Shown one piece after another: positions 14,172 to 61,054 of a stretch of DNA of 64,000 nt. Source of the stretch: Pseudocoprococcus catus (lineage in GTDB: Bacteria > Bacillota > Clostridia > Lachnospirales > Lachnospiraceae); assembly GCF_902381825.1 (NCBI RefSeq), contig NZ_LR698973.1, positions 1,795,584 through 1,859,583 on the forward strand. The letters run 5' to 3'. The notes under the pieces were generated by a model. That model saw only the letters and a list, made by a program, of their open reading frames with translations, did no database searches and was not told the DNA's origin. The translations under genes were made by a program, and so were the position numbers. Every line of letters starts with the position of its first letter. Positions within the stretch are counted from its first letter, which is position 1.

Positions 14172-14792
14172 ATGGCAATTAAAGTCATTATCTGTCTGGT
14201 ACTGGGTTATATTTTCGGATGTTTTCAGACAGGCTATTTCTATGGCAAATTATTCAAGGGAATTGATGTCCGCAATTACGGCAGCGGCAATGCCGGAACA
14301 ACCAATACCCTTCGAACCCTGGGCAAGCCGGCCGGCTATATTGTCTTTCTTGGGGATGCCCTGAAGGCAGTATTTGCCGTTTGGATTGTGAGATATCTGC
14401 TGTTCCCGGGACTTGGTGATGTGACGAAGATTCTGGAGACTGTCACGGCTCTTGGCGTTGTTCTCGGGCACAATTATCCCTTTTATATGCATTTTAAGGG
14501 CGGCAAAGGCATTGCGGCAACCGGTGGTTTCATGTTCGCACTGGATGTGCGCATCGCCCTGATCGCTGCGATTGTATTTGCGGTTGTATTCTTTACAACA
14601 CGATATGTCTCCGTGGGTTCTTTGACCATTACGGCACTGTTTCCGATTCTGATGCTGATCTTTTATCCTGGACAGTGGGTGGTGTTTGGACTCAGTCTGA
14701 TATTCACGGCACTGGCCTGGTGGCGGCATCGGGCGAATATTAAGCGGCTGATGAATGGAACAGAGAATAAATTTGAGAAAAAGAAAAAATAA
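14172..14792 (+). CDS. plsY: Glycerol-3-phosphate acyltransferase PlsY
   Basis: A 206-residue membrane acyltransferase with about five transmembrane helices and the three PlsY motifs: SGNAGTTNTLRTLG (about residues 37-50), GHNYPFYMHFKGGKGIAATGG (about 98-118) and a late segment before the lysine-rich tail. It moves the acyl group of acyl-phosphate to glycerol-3-phosphate, the first step of phospholipid synthesis. It is the last gene of the rnhB-to-plsY run; the structured element starts 5 nt after its stop. Confidence 0.97.
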   Translation: MAIKVIICLVLGYIFGCFQTGYFYGKLFKGIDVRNYGSGNAGTTNTLRTLGKPAGYIVFLGDALKAVFAVWIVRYLLFPGLGDVTKILETVTALGVVLGHNYPFYMHFKGGKGIAATGGFMFALDVRIALIAAIVFAVVFFTTRYVSVGSLTITALFPILMLIFYPGQWVVFGLSLIFTALAWWRHRANIKRLMNGTENKFEKKKK

Positions 14793-14797
14793 AAAGA

Positions 14798-15043
14798 GGC
14801 GTGCAGTCCTAAATTATCAATAATAGGATGACAAATGAGAAATTCAACACAGGCACACTTGCGTTTTCTAACACTGGCAGCAGTATATAAGGTCCTAAAG
14901 GACAGGACCGAAGTACTGGTGCTGAAGGTCCGGTGGACTTTCGTTAGCACCGACCGGAGTGGAACGGAGAAGGTGTTAGAAGCACCTGTGTATGAATATT
15001 CTCATTTGTCATCCTATTTATTTGAAGTAGATGGCTGCACGCC
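14798..15043. ncRNA. Unidentified 246-nt long-dyad element, probably structured RNA
   Basis: Nested exact complements span the region: 14798-14806 with 15035-15043 (9 bp), 14822-14841 with 14999-15018 (20 bp), 14847-14853 with 14985-14991 (7 bp) and 14866-14874 with 14973-14981 (9 bp). The central 100 nt holds further stems, for example GGTGCT (14919-14924) with AGCACC (14946-14951) and GGTCC (14891-14895) with GGACC (14905-14909). No convincing protein is encoded. The architecture of a long interrupted rod with a branched tip recalls 6S-like or other large ncRNAs, or the folded terminator region of plsY; none of the RNA families I know could be matched. Confidence 0.55.
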
Positions 15044-15218
15044 ATTGATAATTCTGAGAAATATCAGAACTATACGATAAGGAAAAGTGTTGAACACGGA
15101 TTCGTTTTGTAGGTTGAGGGTTTTGCAATTTTTTACTTAAGGAATCAGATGGAATAGAAGGGTATATGATATTGTCAAATTATGGCGTTTTATGTCGGCT
15201 TTTAGAGAAAGTAATTAA

Positions 15219-15247
15219 TTGCGAATCCACGAAATTCAGCATATAAT
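15219..15247 (+). promoter_or_regulatory. Promoter of the GNAT toxin-antitoxin-like pair
   Basis: TTGCGA at 15219-15224, a 17-bp spacer and TATAAT at 15242-15247, 54 nt before the first gene. The 175 nt between the dyad element and this promoter are AT-rich and show no other feature. Confidence 0.65.
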
Positions 15248-15300
15248 ATAAGTATTAGTAGATTGGAAATGATTTTTGAGTAATATTATGGGGGAAGGTT

Positions 15301-15483
15301 ATGGCGACGAATACATTTGATAGAAGAATTTTAATTAGTGATTCAGAGTCATTGGAGCGGTTGGCAAGAGTTATGGCGGACAATACTCCGAAGAAGCCGA
15401 TTTCAGAACATCCTTTTTCTAGTGATGAGAGAAAGCGAGGAGAAGAGTTATTAAAACGGTGTCCATTGCGCTCTCATCATTGA
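15301..15483 (+). CDS. Small antitoxin-like protein
   Basis: A 60-residue hydrophilic protein (SDSESLERLARVMADN, then a basic, proline-containing tail). I do not recognise a named family. The role is inferred from position: a small gene in the correct order directly before a GNAT toxin-like gene with a 25-nt overlap. Start ATG 15301 follows GGGGGAAGG at a good distance. Its low GC and codon use (ATA, TTA, AAT) resemble the next gene and differ from the surrounding core genes. Confidence 0.6.
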   Translation: MATNTFDRRILISDSESLERLARVMADNTPKKPISEHPFSSDERKRGEELLKRCPLRSHH

Positions 15484-16061
15484 TTGAAGCAACAAAGGAA
15501 GATGAAGGGCTGTTGAGGCAGATTTTATCTTCCTTTTCCTGTAATAAAGATGAGGATATAGAAAATTTTTTACATAGTAGAGCAGTTGAGTTTGAGAGTT
15601 TGTCAAAAGCAAGAACCTATTTAATTTGTGACGAGAATCAATTAATGGAAACAAATTTTTGCTTAGATCAAATAGTCATATATGGTTACATATCAATTGC
15701 GTTGAAAATATTATCTGTTCCATATGATGTGTCTAATCGAAAGCGGAAAGAGATTGATGGATTAAGTGCTAAGATACATGGAGAGCAGATTAAGGATTTT
15801 TCCTGCTATCTTATTGGGCAATTATCAAAGAATTCAAGTGTACAAAATAATGACATTTCAGGTGCAGAATTGCTGCAGGCTGCGTATGATGTTATTATGG
15901 CTGCTGTTGATGCTGTAGGTGGAAGATATGTAATGATTGAATGTCATGAAAAAGAAAAGTTGATGCAATTTTATGCAGTGAATGGTTTTGAAGAAATATC
16001 GCATATAGCAGATGGAAAATGTCCAATGGTACAAATGATTAGAAAAATTGCAAATGCATGA
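15459..16061 (+). CDS. GNAT-family acetyltransferase, putative toxin
   Basis: A 200-residue protein with a GNAT-like core. The N-terminal part DEDIENFLHSRAVEFE...KARTYLICDE and the C-terminal part from YVMIECHEKEKLMQFYAVNGFEEI, preceded by SGAELLQAAYDVIMAAVDAVGG, match TacT-like GNAT toxins that acetylate aminoacyl-tRNA. The acetyl-CoA loop motif is not canonical, with IGQLSKNSS where a Q/RxxGxG/A loop is expected. Start GTG 15459 is inside the upstream gene, so coupled translation is likely. AT-rich codon use suggests acquisition. It could also be a non-toxic acetyltransferase. Confidence 0.65.
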   Translation: MSIALSSLIEATKEDEGLLRQILSSFSCNKDEDIENFLHSRAVEFESLSKARTYLICDENQLMETNFCLDQIVIYGYISIALKILSVPYDVSNRKRKEIDGLSAKIHGEQIKDFSCYLIGQLSKNSSVQNNDISGAELLQAAYDVIMAAVDAVGGRYVMIECHEKEKLMQFYAVNGFEEISHIADGKCPMVQMIRKIANA

Positions 16062-40730: not shown

Positions 40731-41690
40731 ATGGAAAGAGCATTTGCTATGTTGGCTGAACTTTTGCAGCAGGAGCAGTTTGAGCTGCTTATATCGGAAG
40801 AGGATCAGACGGATCACAGTGTAGAGACAGATATTCGCCTTGTCTATTTGATGAATGATGCAGTGGAAAGTTTTCTTGTTTTTAAAGAAGCGAAAATGAC
40901 TGGTAAGTATCTGAGAGACTATGAGGGTATGCTGGACGCGACACTCAGCAAAGAGGAAGAAACTTATATTCTGACTGTATGGCAGGATGATCAGGCACTG
41001 ACAATCTTTTTTAAGCAGTTGGAACTGGAAGTTCATCTTTATGAATATGGCGAGGTTGCGCATTTCTGGGTACCGGGATATGAATATCTGCGTCTTTTGG
41101 AGTATCAGATTGCCATTTTGCGGGACAAATATGATTACCTTGGAGAAAATTACTGCACGGATATTGAAAAGAAACTGGCTCAGTTGGCGGATTTTCCGCC
41201 TTTAAATGATACATGTTATCCTGCGGTGCCGGAGAAATATCTGGTACCGAGAGTCAATGGGTGGAGGCCAACAAAGGCGGCAATTGATGTGATGATTGAA
41301 TTGGCTGGAGAAGTCAATGATCGAAGCATGATCAGAAATTTGAAACTATACAGGATGTGTCATGGAAGGTGGATGACACGAAAGATTGCCGGAATGCTGT
41401 GTCAGACAATACATCAGCAGTTGATTGTTCTAATTTCCGAAAAAATGCAGGAGGGAACCAGACATTACTCAAAACGTATTTTTGATGAAAAAATTGAAGA
41501 TGAGTTTAATCGTCGATTAAAAAAGGCAGTGAAGCGTCAGCAGAAATTGATTGCTAGCGGTATCAGAGCCCTGGTGTACCGGGAAGAACCATTTACGACA
41601 GCAAAGGACAGTCTGGAATTTCATGTTTACCTTATGATTGATGAAAAGTGCAGAAAAAACAGGAAGGTTCGAATTGAAGAAGTAAAATAA
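40731..41690 (+). CDS. DUF3878-like hypothetical protein
   Basis: A 319-residue cytoplasmic protein without membrane segments or recognisable catalytic motifs; its overall look (acidic N-terminal half, EYGEVAHFWVPGYEYLRLLEYQIAILRDKY, then a basic helical C terminus) resembles the DUF3878 family common in Lachnospiraceae. ATG 40731 is chosen because GAGGGAAAG precedes it; the frame continues upstream only through the rpsU terminator. The gene is intact, and its stop lies 1-2 nt before the 9-bp repeat that bounds the mobile-element scar. No function is known. Confidence 0.75.
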   Translation: MERAFAMLAELLQQEQFELLISEEDQTDHSVETDIRLVYLMNDAVESFLVFKEAKMTGKYLRDYEGMLDATLSKEEETYILTVWQDDQALTIFFKQLELEVHLYEYGEVAHFWVPGYEYLRLLEYQIAILRDKYDYLGENYCTDIEKKLAQLADFPPLNDTCYPAVPEKYLVPRVNGWRPTKAAIDVMIELAGEVNDRSMIRNLKLYRMCHGRWMTRKIAGMLCQTIHQQLIVLISEKMQEGTRHYSKRIFDEKIEDEFNRRLKKAVKRQQKLIASGIRALVYREEPFTTAKDSLEFHVYLMIDEKCRKNRKVRIEEVK

Positions 41691-41691
41691 C

Positions 41692-41700
41692 GGCTGTCTA
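41692..41700. repeat. 9-bp direct repeat, left copy
   Basis: GGCTGTCTA at 41692-41700 recurs in the same orientation at 44104-44112. The two copies bound the sigma fragment and the GntR/ABC cassette, so they may mark the junctions of an inserted segment. Confidence 0.5.
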
Positions 41701-41944
41701 AAAGTATCGTCTGCCCCTGGGCAGAGAACAGATAAGTTTCGCCATAGTCCGGCACTTGGAAATACTCGTCTGTGGTGCTTAGCGGGACAAACTTTTCTTC
41801 GGTCAAATATTCAAGGGAGATTTCCCGCTTCCACCTTGCCGCCAGCATACGGGCAGCGTCAAAGGACGCATGACGAATAACAATCTGGCAATAGGTATCA
41901 TGGGTATAGCGGATATGTTCTTGATAGGCTTCCTGTTCGGTCAT
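41692..41944 (-). pseudogene. Truncated ICE-type sigma-70-like protein
   Basis: On the minus strand from ATG 41944, about 84 residues (EAYQEHIRYTHDTYCQIVIR, AARWKREISLEYL, TTDEYFQVPDYGETYLFSAQ) match the N-terminal half of the small sigma-like regulators carried by Clostridia integrative conjugative elements (recalled from memory). The DNA-binding C-terminal half is missing: after the LLDS residues the frame runs into sequence antisense to the DUF3878 gene. The break is at or next to the 9-bp repeat. This shows that an ICE once stood here. Confidence 0.75.
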
Positions 41945-42114
41945 GGAAACTCCCCCTTTCTTCGATTATGGGAAAGGGCGGCAGCACTTTTTGCTGTCGC
42001 CCCTTGATTCCCCACCAGCAAGGACAGACGGGGCTGTCAACGGTGGGCGCAGCACATTCACTTGCCGTTGACTGGCTCGGCTGGGTTTGCTATTTTTGAA
42101 TGGTAATTGCAGAT
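41945..42114. mobile_element. GC-rich non-coding remnant of a conjugative element
   Basis: About 170 nt between the sigma fragment and the ABC permease. It is clearly more GC-rich than the cassette to its right and contains the leader-like sequence usually found before the sigma-like gene in ICEs, including its minus-strand ribosome site GAAAGGGGGAG. No coding potential is seen. Confidence 0.55.
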
Positions 42115-42747
42115 TTAATTCTTGCGACTATATCCAATGGTGCTTATTATGAGGGAAATTCCAAAAATCAAAATTGCCGCTATCCCTGTGATTAGCACAT
42201 ATGAATGAACAGAATTTACCATAGCAGCCATTCCCGGCCCATCTTCAAAATATTTTACAAAGTAAAACATTGGAATTACCACAATCAATCCCATAGTTTG
42301 CGCAGAACGAAAACCAAACCAATAAGTTAATGGCAAGCAAATTCCTGTCCATAATAATGGGATAATAATTGCTGCTGCAATCGAAAATAACCAGATAAGC
42401 ATATCAAAGTTTTGAAAAATTATGCTGGATAAACTATTGAACGCAATGCTTCCCAAAATGCTGATTGCAACAGTATATATTACGGAAACATATTTACTTG
42501 CAACAACAGTAAAATTGCTTATCGGCATAGCTAATTGATATTTTTTCCAGCTTGCCTTTTCATCACTTGCGAAACTCATAATATTTTGCATACCGATTGT
42601 CATGGCAAACATAACGGAAGTAAATAAGCCGGCATAAATTCCAGCATTGAAAAGAAGCAGAACAATAGCTGCTGCTGCAATCAGAATAAGTTTCTTATCA
42701 ATACTCTTGAAGAAAATGGATATGTCTTTATATATCAATCCTCGCAT
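42115..42747 (-). CDS. ABC-2 type permease (cassette 1)
   Basis: A 210-residue protein with six predicted membrane helices, of the short ABC-2 permease type that partners YtrA-regulated ATPases. It overlaps the ATPase gene by 13 nt, and the last gene ends in an arrangement GntR-ATPase-permease all on the minus strand. The substrate is unknown; related modules respond to envelope stress or cell-wall antibiotics. AT-rich codon use (ATA, TTA, AAA) differs from the flanking core genes and supports acquisition. Confidence 0.85.
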   Translation of the reverse strand: MRGLIYKDISIFFKSIDKKLILIAAAAIVLLLFNAGIYAGLFTSVMFAMTIGMQNIMSFASDEKASWKKYQLAMPISNFTVVASKYVSVIYTVAISILGSIAFNSLSSIIFQNFDMLIWLFSIAAAIIIPLLWTGICLPLTYWFGFRSAQTMGLIVVIPMFYFVKYFEDGPGMAAMVNSVHSYVLITGIAAILIFGISLIISTIGYSRKN

Positions 42748-43598
42748 GATGTACCTCCTTTAACATAGAAAAGCATAATATCTTCTAATGTGGCATTATC
42801 CACAATGATGTTTTTGTATTTTCGTTTGAATGCTTCCTTGTCATGAACAAGACACTCCACGCTCATATTTGTAGTTCGGTGTATGATATAATCATCAGAG
42901 GAAAGCTGTGCAAATTTTTCTTTTCCGCACTTTGCCACGCCATAATTATAAACAAGATCATCTTTCTGTTCCTCGAAAATGATTTTTCCCTGATGAATTA
43001 AAATCACATAGTCTGCAATTTTTTGTATGTCCGAAGTAATATGCGACGAAAAGAAGATAGAGCAATCTTCATCTTGGATAAATTCCCAAAATAGGTCTAA
43101 TACTTCATCACGCACAACGGGGTCAAGACCTGTTGTTGCTTCGTCCAAAATCAACAGTTTAGGTCTATGTGCCATAGCACAAATGATAGACAACTTCATT
43201 TTCATGCCTTTAGAAAATGTGCCAATCGTTTTCTTGGTCGGGATTTTGAATTTTTTCAAGTATTGTGAAAAAAGGTTACTATCCCATGTCTTATAAACTC
43301 CTTTCAAGATTTTTTCAATATCTGCGGCTGTAAACACATCATGAAAATTACATTCATCAAAAACGACGCCAATATTTTCTTTGACAGTTGGAATTGTATG
43401 GTCTATTCCAAAGACTTGTATCTGTCCGCTATCTTTGCTTAGTTCATTTAATATCAGATTGATAGTAGTGCTTTTTCCTGCACCATTCTCGCCAATAAAA
43501 CCTACAATCCTGCCTTTAGGGACTTTGAACGAAACATTGTCCAAAGAAAAATCCTCGAATTGCTTGCATAAATTCTGCACCAAAATGTTGTTATCCAT
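42735..43598 (-). CDS. ABC transporter ATPase (cassette 1)
   Basis: A 287-residue ATPase. Walker A GENGAGKST, Q-loop region GVVFDECNFHD, signature TFSKGMKMKL (non-standard in place of LSGGQ but usual in this subfamily), Walker B LLILDEATTGLDP and switch His in SSHITSDI. ATG 43598 is preferred over GTG 43607 because the AGAGGTG ribosome site overlaps the latter. It is of YtrB/CcmA-like type and energises the permease encoded 13 nt inside its end. Confidence 0.93.
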   Translation of the reverse strand: MDNNILVQNLCKQFEDFSLDNVSFKVPKGRIVGFIGENGAGKSTTINLILNELSKDSGQIQVFGIDHTIPTVKENIGVVFDECNFHDVFTAADIEKILKGVYKTWDSNLFSQYLKKFKIPTKKTIGTFSKGMKMKLSIICAMAHRPKLLILDEATTGLDPVVRDEVLDLFWEFIQDEDCSIFFSSHITSDIQKIADYVILIHQGKIIFEEQKDDLVYNYGVAKCGKEKFAQLSSDDYIIHRTTNMSVECLVHDKEAFKRKYKNIIVDNATLEDIMLFYVKGGTSCED

Positions 43599-43613
43599 GC
43601 CTGTCACCTCTCG

Positions 43614-43985
43614 TTATTCCTCGTAAAATAGTTTTAGAATATTCGTCATTTGCTCAAGACTAATGCCATGTGCTCGACCAATTTCTGCGACCTTTTGTAA
43701 AAGTTCTTCAGCAATTCGTAACTGTTCCTCTTGAATAAATTCCCTATTCTGTGATGCTACAAAACTGCCTTTTCCAGATACAGTTTCTATAAATCCATCT
43801 CTCGTTAAATCTTCATATGCTCTCTGAACGGTAATAACACTGATATGTAAATCTTTTGCTAAAGCTCTCATAGAAGGGAGGGCTTCGCCAGCAGATAATG
43901 TGCCGTCCATAATAAAACTTTTTACTTGCATACAGATTTGTTCGTAAATAGGCTTATCACTGCTATTACTTATGATAATCTCCAC
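43614..43985 (-). CDS. GntR-family regulator, YtrA type (cassette 1)
   Basis: A 123-residue short GntR regulator. Winged-helix with PIYEQICMQVKSFIMDGTL, LPSMRALAKDLHIS and the AYEDLTRDGFIETVSGKGSFV wing, followed by a short dimerisation tail, as in YtrA. It probably represses its own operon through the dyad at 44022-44040, which covers the start site of the minus-strand promoter. Confidence 0.93.
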   Translation of the reverse strand: MEIIISNSSDKPIYEQICMQVKSFIMDGTLSAGEALPSMRALAKDLHISVITVQRAYEDLTRDGFIETVSGKGSFVASQNREFIQEEQLRIAEELLQKVAEIGRAHGISLEQMTNILKLFYEE

Positions 43986-44003
43986 TTGCTCACCTCACCA
44001 TGC

Positions 44004-44069
44004 GTACTTATCGTAATAAGCGTACTTATTCGATAAGTACAATATAGGCGATTTGTGTGAACCTGTCAA
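44004..44069 (-). promoter_or_regulatory. Promoter and operator of GntR/ABC cassette 1
   Basis: Minus-strand promoter: TTGACA (44069-44064), 17-bp spacer, TATATT (44046-44041). Directly downstream is the perfect dyad GTACTTAT-TCG-ATAAGTAC (44022-44040), with a second weaker CTTAT...ATAAG pair (44007-44020). This placement over +1 is that of an autorepressor site for the GntR protein. Confidence 0.75.
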
Positions 44070-44101
44070 GAGAAAAGATGTAAATACATTCGGAAAAGTG
44101 A

Positions 44102-44850
44102 GTGGCTGTCTATCAAATTCTTGTGTGTTACTTTACCGCACATGAGCATTTATACATGGATTATAAGAATGACATTTCATTTTTGATAGACAGCACATTG
44201 AATTTATATGAGCATCAGCCAACGTGGAATCCGAATATGCCGCTTCGTGGATTGGGATATTTTGCGCGATTATATGAAGACTATGTCCGATTGAATGAAC
44301 TGAATATTTATTCTGAGGCGCGTCTTAAACTGCCAAAACCTCAGTATTTTGTCTTTTACAATGGCACAAAGGCTGAACCTGACAGACAAATTCTAAAATT
44401 AAGCGATTCATTTAATCGCTTCATGATTATGCCATTTTTGTGGATACGGTCAGAAGATATATTGATCAGGGGTACATAACCAGACGAGCTGTTGAAGAGT
44501 GCATTGCTAATGATATTCTCAGAGAATTTTTAGTTCGCAACAAAACAGGAGTGATGAGAATGCTGTTTGGTAAAGAAGATTGGGAACGTTATAAGCAACG
44601 GGAAATGAAAGTGTTGGCTGAAGAAACAGTGCGGCGGGTCACCAAAGAGACAGAGAAGCGAGTACGTAAGACATTAGAGCAGCAAATGGCAGAAGAAATT
44701 GAACGCAGAGTTCAGCTGGAACTGGAGCGCAGGACAACAATAAATATTATATGTGATTCTCTTGAGAAACTTGGAGAAGTGCCGGAAGATCTTAGAAGAA
44801 TACTAGGAGAGCAGAAGAATTCAGTGATACTCAGGAATAAGAGCGAATGA
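44102..44850 (+). pseudogene. Broken Rpn/PD-(D/E)XK transposase-like gene
   Basis: Two fragments in different frames. Fragment 1 (44102-44479) encodes a middle part (MDYKNDISFLIDSTLNLYEH, TWNPNMPLRGLGYFARLYED, KPQYFVFYNG); fragment 2 (44440-44850) encodes the C-terminal part (YAIFVDTVRRYIDQGYITRR...DILREFL and a coiled tail). In intact members a longer stretch lies between the KLSDSF-like motif and FVDTVRRYIDQG, so an internal deletion with frameshift has occurred near 44420-44440, and the N terminus is also cut off at the scar border. The family is the PDDEXK_2/Rpn recombination-promoting nuclease group (from memory). Confidence 0.7.
44104..44112. repeat. 9-bp direct repeat, right copy
   Basis: GGCTGTCTA, same as at 41692-41700. 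Sequence overlapping this copy (GCTGTCTATCAAA, 44105-44117) also has an exact 13-bp inverted partner at 44182-44194 inside the Rpn fragment. Confidence 0.5.
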
Positions 44851-45016
44851 TGTTTAGCTTTAGCCTGAGTTCGGTTTTTTGTATGGAAAAAGTGGAATAC
44901 CTAAAAGGATTGCTGATAACAGAAACACTTGCCAGAAAAATGATTGAATTTGAATAACAATGGTATGTTTAACAGCTGCGTGCATAAACTGATGTGAGGA
45001 GAATGTGGAGGCGGCA

Positions 45017-60907: not shown

Positions 60908-61054
60908 GGAGCATTCGCGCTAAGTAGTTAGTAAAGTGCGGTTTTAGATTATCGATAAAAGGATTCCCTATGATCTGTTCAGCACAGGTGCATAGGGAAT
61001 CCTTTTTTGAAGTTTATAGACCGCACTTTGAAAAATATATGAGCGCGAACACTC
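60908..61054. other. 147-nt nested inverted-repeat element after glnN
   Basis: Three nested exact stems: TTCGCGCT 60914-60921 with 61042-61049, AAAGTGCGGT 60933-60942 with 61020-61029, and a 16-bp stem 60957-60972 with 60991-61006 followed by TT. The ends extend to GGAG...CTCC (60908/61054). The inner stem plus T-run can act as terminator of glnN; the outer symmetry is larger than a terminator needs, so a small non-autonomous mobile element or a structured RNA is possible. Confidence 0.6.

Follow-up and report, generated by a model that had tools for sequence, protein, structure and literature searches.

The interval at positions 14798-15043 of the window (the whole stretch of 64,000 nucleotides analyzed here) is, with a probability of about 0.75, an aged hybrid copy of a dispersed, non-coding, MITE-like mobile DNA hairpin of the Lachnospiraceae. 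The initial annotation had offered two interpretations, a mobile hairpin element and a structured, 6S-like RNA; the former held up and the latter did not. In the mechanism that we propose, the hairpin would act as DNA, either as a single strand or as a cruciform, and would be moved by a transposase acting in trans at the element ends. Between transpositions, each arm would be copied again from the other by template switching during replication. Selection on hairpin integrity may act together with this arm-templated copying or in its place, with the stems drifting far more in sequence than in pairing. The hairpin family is recently mobile in some members of one gut-bacterial family. It is apparently undescribed and unnamed as far as we searched: no paper on it was found among the titles and abstract openings listed from the open literature. 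The 3161 candidates of PMC8040213 may include this hairpin family.

Fold and surroundings of the window element

The four nested exact arms (9, 20, 7, and 9 bp) described in the initial annotation were all present at 14798-15043 when verified letter by letter, and these element coordinates were correct. The 7-bp arm pairs 14847-14853 with 14985-14991; the other three pairings are given in Table 1. Folding of 14780-15060 as RNA gave -118 kcal/mol (z -12.3), and none of 200 shuffled sequences folded as well. The opposite strand gave -112.3 kcal/mol, with a z of -12.3. Among exact inverted repeats in the window whose arms lie no more than 300 nt apart, the 20-bp one of the element was the longest; when the window was resampled 20 times with a first-order Markov model, such repeats reached at most 15 bp. 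Two ORFs cross the element, one of 81 aa (14835-15080, + strand) and one of 95 aa (14663-14950, - strand), and both were taken for chance.

The fold also reproduced the branched tip that had been proposed, with two hairpins, one spanning about 14880-14919 and the other 14918-14951. The tip plan of the family consists of a 17-nt mini-hairpin, helix P2, a GGC/GCC-type helix, P3, P4, and a TAAANNACA-type loop. A covariance model of this tip, R1, built from 13 tips of Coprococcus catus VPIC661 (G001), the nearest genome in the comparison set, gave a sole significant match on the window, at 14849-14933 (54.7 bits, E 5.9e-15). The mini-hairpin of the window copy has lost its TGCC half, the inverted ends are 9 bp only, and no target duplication was seen on this copy. 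It is an aged hybrid, the tip of which carries module B as a second, inserted hairpin. Outer ends similar to those of the window copy were also found on another C. catus copy, L019.

Table 1. Features of the element and its surroundings, in window positions
Feature	Positions	Strand	Basis or remark
Left outer arm GGCGTGCAG, element end (9 bp)	14798..14806	+	Exact pairing with 15035-15043
Left inner arm, 20 bp, copy-specific sequence	14822..14841	+	
Conserved tip of the family, broken up here by the second hairpin	14849..14988	+	Covariance model R1
Tip helix P2, 5' half (9 bp; 3' half 14973-14981)	14866..14874	+	
Apical hairpin P3/P4 with TAAANNACA-type family loop	14880..14919	+	Fold, family alignment
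Inserted hairpin module B, tail CGACCGGAGTGGAACGGAG	14918..14972	+	
Right inner arm, exact complement of 14822-14841	14999..15018	+	
Right outer arm CTGCACGCC	15035..15043	+	
Orphan right arm, 46 nt	15089..15134	+	89% identical to the L011 right arm (blastn E 5e-14)
Reduced second copy with 10-bp outer ends and 16-bp arms, tip down to TTCAGCACAGGTG	60933..61029	+	

In other genomes of the family, hairpins like module B are found by themselves, apart from the remainder of the element. Module B with a GACCGGAGNGGAACGGAG-type tail was observed as a separate repeat at L002, L012, L017, and other loci in G003, and also in G007, G030, G051, and G056, among others. In the C. catus copy L024, module B has the opposite orientation. 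Other extra hairpins are present in the tips of the G226 copies L147, L148, L159, L161, and L162.

The gene upstream of the element is plsY, as had been annotated (NCBIfam TIGR00023, 163.8 bits, above the cut-off), and the window copy begins 6 nt behind it. The "GNAT pair" assigned downstream was not confirmed: neither ORF had a Pfam match at E 0.1, and the larger one had no NCBIfam match. These two ORFs (60 and 200 aa, window 15301-16061) overlap, and most of the 200-aa ORF is absent from C. catus VPIC661, with window 15475-16059 unaligned. The identity between the window and VPIC661 was mostly 89 to 98%, with stretches of 74 to 86%. VPIC661 also carries an element directly behind plsY (L011), with arms different from those of the window copy. 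The right arm of L011 matched the orphan arm in the window (Table 1), the left partner of which is missing; this match was found by blastn, the global alignment leaving both sequences unopposed. The plsY locus may have had two adjacent elements with lineage-specific partial loss, or one element may have replaced the other. Apart from placing a stable hairpin in the 3' part of the plsY message, the window copy probably serves this gene in no dedicated way.

A second, reduced copy is located behind a 703-aa ORF (60933-61029), with the outer ends AAAGTGCGGT/ACCGCACTTT, and is found at the same place and nearly identical in VPIC661. R1 gave no match there, and this copy was assigned to the family because of the shared plan and the short tip remnant. 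Tip-deleted copies were found in G226 too (L141 and L152). Elsewhere in the window, synteny with contig C11 of VPIC661 is broken at 41690-44883: window 41691-44415 (about 2.7 kb) corresponds to about 150 bases in VPIC661, which has about 7.6 kb extra at window 44837-44883.

Distribution and mobility of the family

The initial annotation had proposed a search for copies in related genomes, with many copies per genome pointing to a repeat element, and this was the result obtained. A DNA search of 98 relatives, with at most seven candidates scored per genome, matched parts of the element in 10, including at least 7 places in VPIC661. In a species-level collection, the exact tip pattern was found in 14 stretches, all from C. 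catus VPIC661. When R1 (an 89-nt tip) was applied, all 17 scored candidates in this genome matched, so that it has at least 17 copies. At E 0.001, 78 of 299 sampled genomes of the family were matched by R1. At E 1e-6, matches were found in 19 of 295 genomes of the order sample and 5 of 245 of the class sample, both of which include genomes of family f1 and were filtered strictly, with weak relatives lost. Every match fell in f1, which we take to be Lachnospiraceae. No element match was found in plasmid and phage collections, and the exact tip pattern was not found in viral contigs. At L007 (G009), inverted copies at 896-982 and 1484-1570 lie about 500 bp apart, their tips being identical but for two compensated pairs in the apical stem. 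At L107 (G308:C2:87500-91000), a unit of about 950 bp forms two to three tandem repeats, with elements in both orientations around similar ORFs of 172 to 176 aa; an Rpn-type nuclease was considered for this ORF and dropped, as it had no Pfam match.

The claim of a mobile hairpin element was supported by the many copies per genome, by inverted ends and target duplications on recent copies in relatives, and by sister species that lack the element behind the gene in question. Copies in G226 and G132, which represent two other genera, are alike within each genome (mean tip scores of 0.97 and 0.96, respectively). The recent ones are about 208 to 210 bp long, non-coding, and MITE-like, with inverted ends of the TAGGTAATTGCGAAACTC/GAGTTTCGCAATTACCTA type and of the AGGTAATTGCGAAACTC type. 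In G226, the end pattern gave 64 + 68 matches, versus 5 + 9 for the reversed pattern. Exact direct repeats of 10 to 14 bp flank 6 of the 10 scored G226 copies (L126, L128, L129, L131, L132, and L133, the repeat of L131 being shifted by four bases from the usual left end) and 3 of the 11 scored G132 copies (L115, L120, and L121). Repeats with one or two mismatches were found at L125, L127, and L130 in G226 and at L117 and L122 in G132, and the remaining scored copies showed no convincing target duplication. As a control, mispaired ends gave direct-repeat scores of 7 or less.

For one G226 copy, we examined the corresponding site in other species of the genus. The downstream gene was matched in 21 of the 25 other genomes, and 19 of these were used. 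The tip motif was found in none of these 19 sister species within 360 nt upstream of the downstream gene. The end of the upstream gene was kept in 7 of the 19; in 6 of these, 19 to 96 nt of intergenic DNA carried no element ends, and the seventh locus (L248) had one end-like match. The sister species are about 80% identical, at which level an exact empty site cannot be aligned.

As candidate for the mobilizer, DDE_Tnp_1 (PF01609), the sole transposase family searched in G226 and G132, gave no match in either genome and was dropped. Among the ORFs flanking 33 loci, no family was shared between genomes except in a few pairs. At the 30 of 61 G226 places examined, we saw no long element with true ends. 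Two pairs of far-apart ends in G226 (L149 and L150) were rejected as long elements; their right ends had 5 mismatches in 16, equal to the background, and we regard them as truncated copies.

Pairing in tips and arms and the alternative explanations

The pairing of the tip was examined in two alignments. Alignment A1 holds 13 C. catus copies whose tips are uninterrupted, and leaves out L001, one L024 copy (interrupted by module B), L041 (right half missing), and four further VPIC661 copies. In A1, 98.9% of the cells pair, 15 of the 27 pairs change on both sides, and the covariation score was 0.569, versus 0.193 in shuffled alignments (0/500 as high). The second alignment, fitted to the model structure, holds 95 matches from many genera (81 distinct). 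Here, 94.5% of the cells pair, and the score was 0.655 versus 0.189 when shuffled (0/500), with a maximum of 0.108 in slid controls. The covarying copies for which a search of related genomes had been suggested were found, with changes on both sides at 23 of the 24 tip pairs.

These changes were made almost without wobble pairs. The 95 rows contain 2117 Watson-Crick pairs and 16 G-U pairs (of 2133 standard pairs), together with 17 A-C and 95 other cells, most of the latter sitting at two P2 pairs. The 13 C. catus rows alone gave 345 Watson-Crick, 2 G-U, 1 A-C, and 3 other cells. A reduced set of 36 rows from outside C. catus, which omits 38 near-duplicate loci, the 13 C. catus rows, and 8 partial or weak rows including the window copy, and in which L107 is still represented three times and L108 and L007 twice each, gave 783, 5, 8, and 50, respectively. 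For 21 6S RNAs of relatives, counted on the fold of their own alignment, the values were 742, 152, 11, and 39. The G-U share was therefore 0.6 to 0.8% in the tip versus 17% in 6S RNA, the one RNA family that served as the yardstick. Since G-U and A-C are equally rare in the tip, neither strand is favored, and the near-pure Watson-Crick pairing argues for pairing at the DNA level.

Within each C. catus copy the outer arms are complementary, although from one copy to the next they are unrelated in sequence. The longest exact complementary arm run within a copy had a median of 19.5 (range, 9 to 27) in 16 C. catus-type copies including that of the window, versus a median of 6 and a maximum of 10 between copies (240 comparisons). 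In G226, G132, and G204, the arms are common to the copies, and G328 shows both cases. We also compared nine orthologous pairs of copies, eight between G245 and G357 and one between G516 and G548. In the tips, 269 of 287 pairs were unchanged, 7 were broken, and 4 were G-T. In the arms, 187 of 245 pairs were unchanged (28 more were gapped), 31 were broken, and 13 were G-T. Compensating changes numbered 14 in the arms (shuffled mean of 6.3, maximum of 13) and 7 in the tip (shuffled mean of 1.7, maximum of 7). The clearest compensation was seen in the arms of L208/L214, with 9 compensated, 2 G-T, no broken, and 11 gapped pairs. One-sided changes are common in these orthologous pairs, and pairing is therefore imperfectly kept in place.

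The tip identity was 96 to 100% in seven of the nine orthologous pairs and 0.78 and 0.89 in the other two. The adjacent intergenic DNA diverges at several orthologous loci; the flanks were 94 to 100% identical at L082, L203, and L205, and at L203/L217 the tip (78%) had changed more than the flanks (98 to 100%). The conservation of the tip in place suggests that the element may serve the site and is not purely parasitic, and because most tips are so conserved, there is room for a host function. It would also fit stems that are complementary by selection alone, for a DNA-level site function such as protein binding or a cruciform, without arm-templated copying. We consider this the foremost alternative, though a doubtful one: arms are broken at some orthologous loci, against what selection on pairing would predict, C. 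catus arms drift to unrelated sequence between copies, and G-U or A-C intermediates are nearly absent from the changes at tip pairs. Template switching is reported to make and keep perfect hairpins (PMC8794818). It is from this published mechanism, together with the lack of G-U in the paired changes, that we infer maintenance of the arms by template switching.

A role as RNA was considered in two forms. In the first, the element would act in cis from either side, as a bidirectional terminator or a stabilizer of mRNA 3' ends. If folding were needed on both strands, G-U pairs would be forbidden, so the equal rarity of G-U and A-C agrees with such a role, as does the position of the window copy right behind plsY. 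A scan of 14700-15320 gave no terminator-like site, meaning a GC-rich stem and short loop with a T run directly behind, a result limited to loops of 3 to 8 nt that cannot judge a large hairpin. We regard this role as unlikely, because it leaves the tip conservation across genera, the target duplications, and the recent dispersal unexplained.

The second form, a functional class of structured ncRNA (6S-like or new) with many paralogues, appears improbable. Features that would suit an RNA are the branching of the tip, its conserved loops, the covariation at 23 of 24 pairs, and the tips largely kept in place between sister species; against it stands the G-U share given above. A search of the Rfam covariance models, which had been suggested for this interval, found no family that reached its gathering score, either in the window or on the element at 20 further loci. 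STnc410 (E 0.85) and SpF66 (E 0.54) were taken as chance, and so was MIR7127, which was below the gathering score and lay on a near-perfect hairpin. The proposal of a 6S-like RNA was abandoned, as there was no Rfam match, G-U pairs are lacking, and the 6S gene of VPIC661 lies elsewhere, at C64:100911. A TwoAYGGAY RNA (72.8 bits) at L066 1979-2140 is a real neighbor of an element copy and not the element itself. Promoter-like sites at the window copy were not in excess of those in shuffled sequences (3 versus 2.2). The orientation of 41 elements to the neighboring ORFs was mixed, with 15 ++, 11 --, 9 +-, 4 -+, and 2 undetermined, as judged by simple ORF calling (in 9 of the 41 the overlap with an ORF exceeds 40 nt, in most cases probably by chance). 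In the arms of C. catus copies, G-T mismatches (16) outnumber A-C (5), as might be expected of an RNA. In 23 copies from other genomes, there were 14 G-T and 25 A-C. The G-T and A-C counts were 15/17 in G226, 3/8 in G132, 3/5 in G204, and 0/7 in G328, and strand bias as a sign of RNA was rejected, there being no consistent bias across genomes.

That the arms are pre-existing palindromes of the target, the tip alone being inserted, is very improbable: copy-specific C. catus arms and the YPAL targets of Yersinia, which are reported to span or adjoin dyad symmetry (PMC2229807), fit this model, but in G226, G132, and G204 the arms move together with the element, the target duplications lie outside the arms in G226 and G132, and exact palindromes as long as the 20-bp arm were absent from the 20 resampled windows. 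This joint movement in the three genomes also weakened another explanation, in which each insertion would produce the arms afresh by inverted copying of the target.

The mobile DNA hairpin, our preferred reading, brings to light a widespread repeat family in a major group of gut bacteria. It also offers a natural system for studying how hairpins keep pairing as their sequence changes: copies are numerous within a genome, orthologues of them exist in sister species, and wobble intermediates from one copy to another are few. The strong covariation found here is probably not due to RNA, which is a warning for RNA discovery based on covariation; the G-U fraction is a cheap test to distinguish RNA from DNA covariation. 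More tentatively, the family may represent a mobile class recognized by its DNA shape, with a branched single-stranded or cruciform tip, sequence-specific loops, sequence-free helices, a recombinase acting in trans, duplications of 10 to 14 bp, and template-switched stems. If so, copies in one genome would share structure and not stem sequence.

Comparison with known systems

The rod-like form and the size of the element are similar to those of 6S RNA (RF00013), of which it gave no match. There is a close likeness to bacterial MITEs such as QMITE2 of Coxiella and Correia/NEMIS, which are described in PMC10969869 and PMC2229807 as short, non-coding, and intergenic, with inverted ends, target duplications, and a predicted stable stem-loop transcript. 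The family shares with MITEs its short length, lack of coding capacity, multiple copies, terminal inverted repeats, and target duplications. It differs from them in that a branched internal tip, and not the ends only, is conserved across genera with covariation, in that the stems are free in sequence, and in that no source insertion sequence is known. YPAL/RU-2 of Yersinia is palindromic and mobile, about 168 bp long, with internal inverted repeats, no TA termini, and target duplications of variable length, reported as 3 to 26 bp (PMC2229807). Insertion of YPAL at dyads is a choice of target, whereas the arms in G226 and G132 belong to the element.

REP/BIME and RAYT systems consist of dispersed extragenic hairpins, and module B resembles them as a small hairpin with a conserved tail. 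The Y1 transposase was matched in five of the seven genomes tested for its genome-wide presence; unlike in REP/RAYT systems, the other two (G003 and G056) had no match though module B is present there. Integron attC sites are likewise folded, with a conserved structure and a variable stem sequence. They occur in cassette arrays, whereas the family described here is dispersed, with target duplications.
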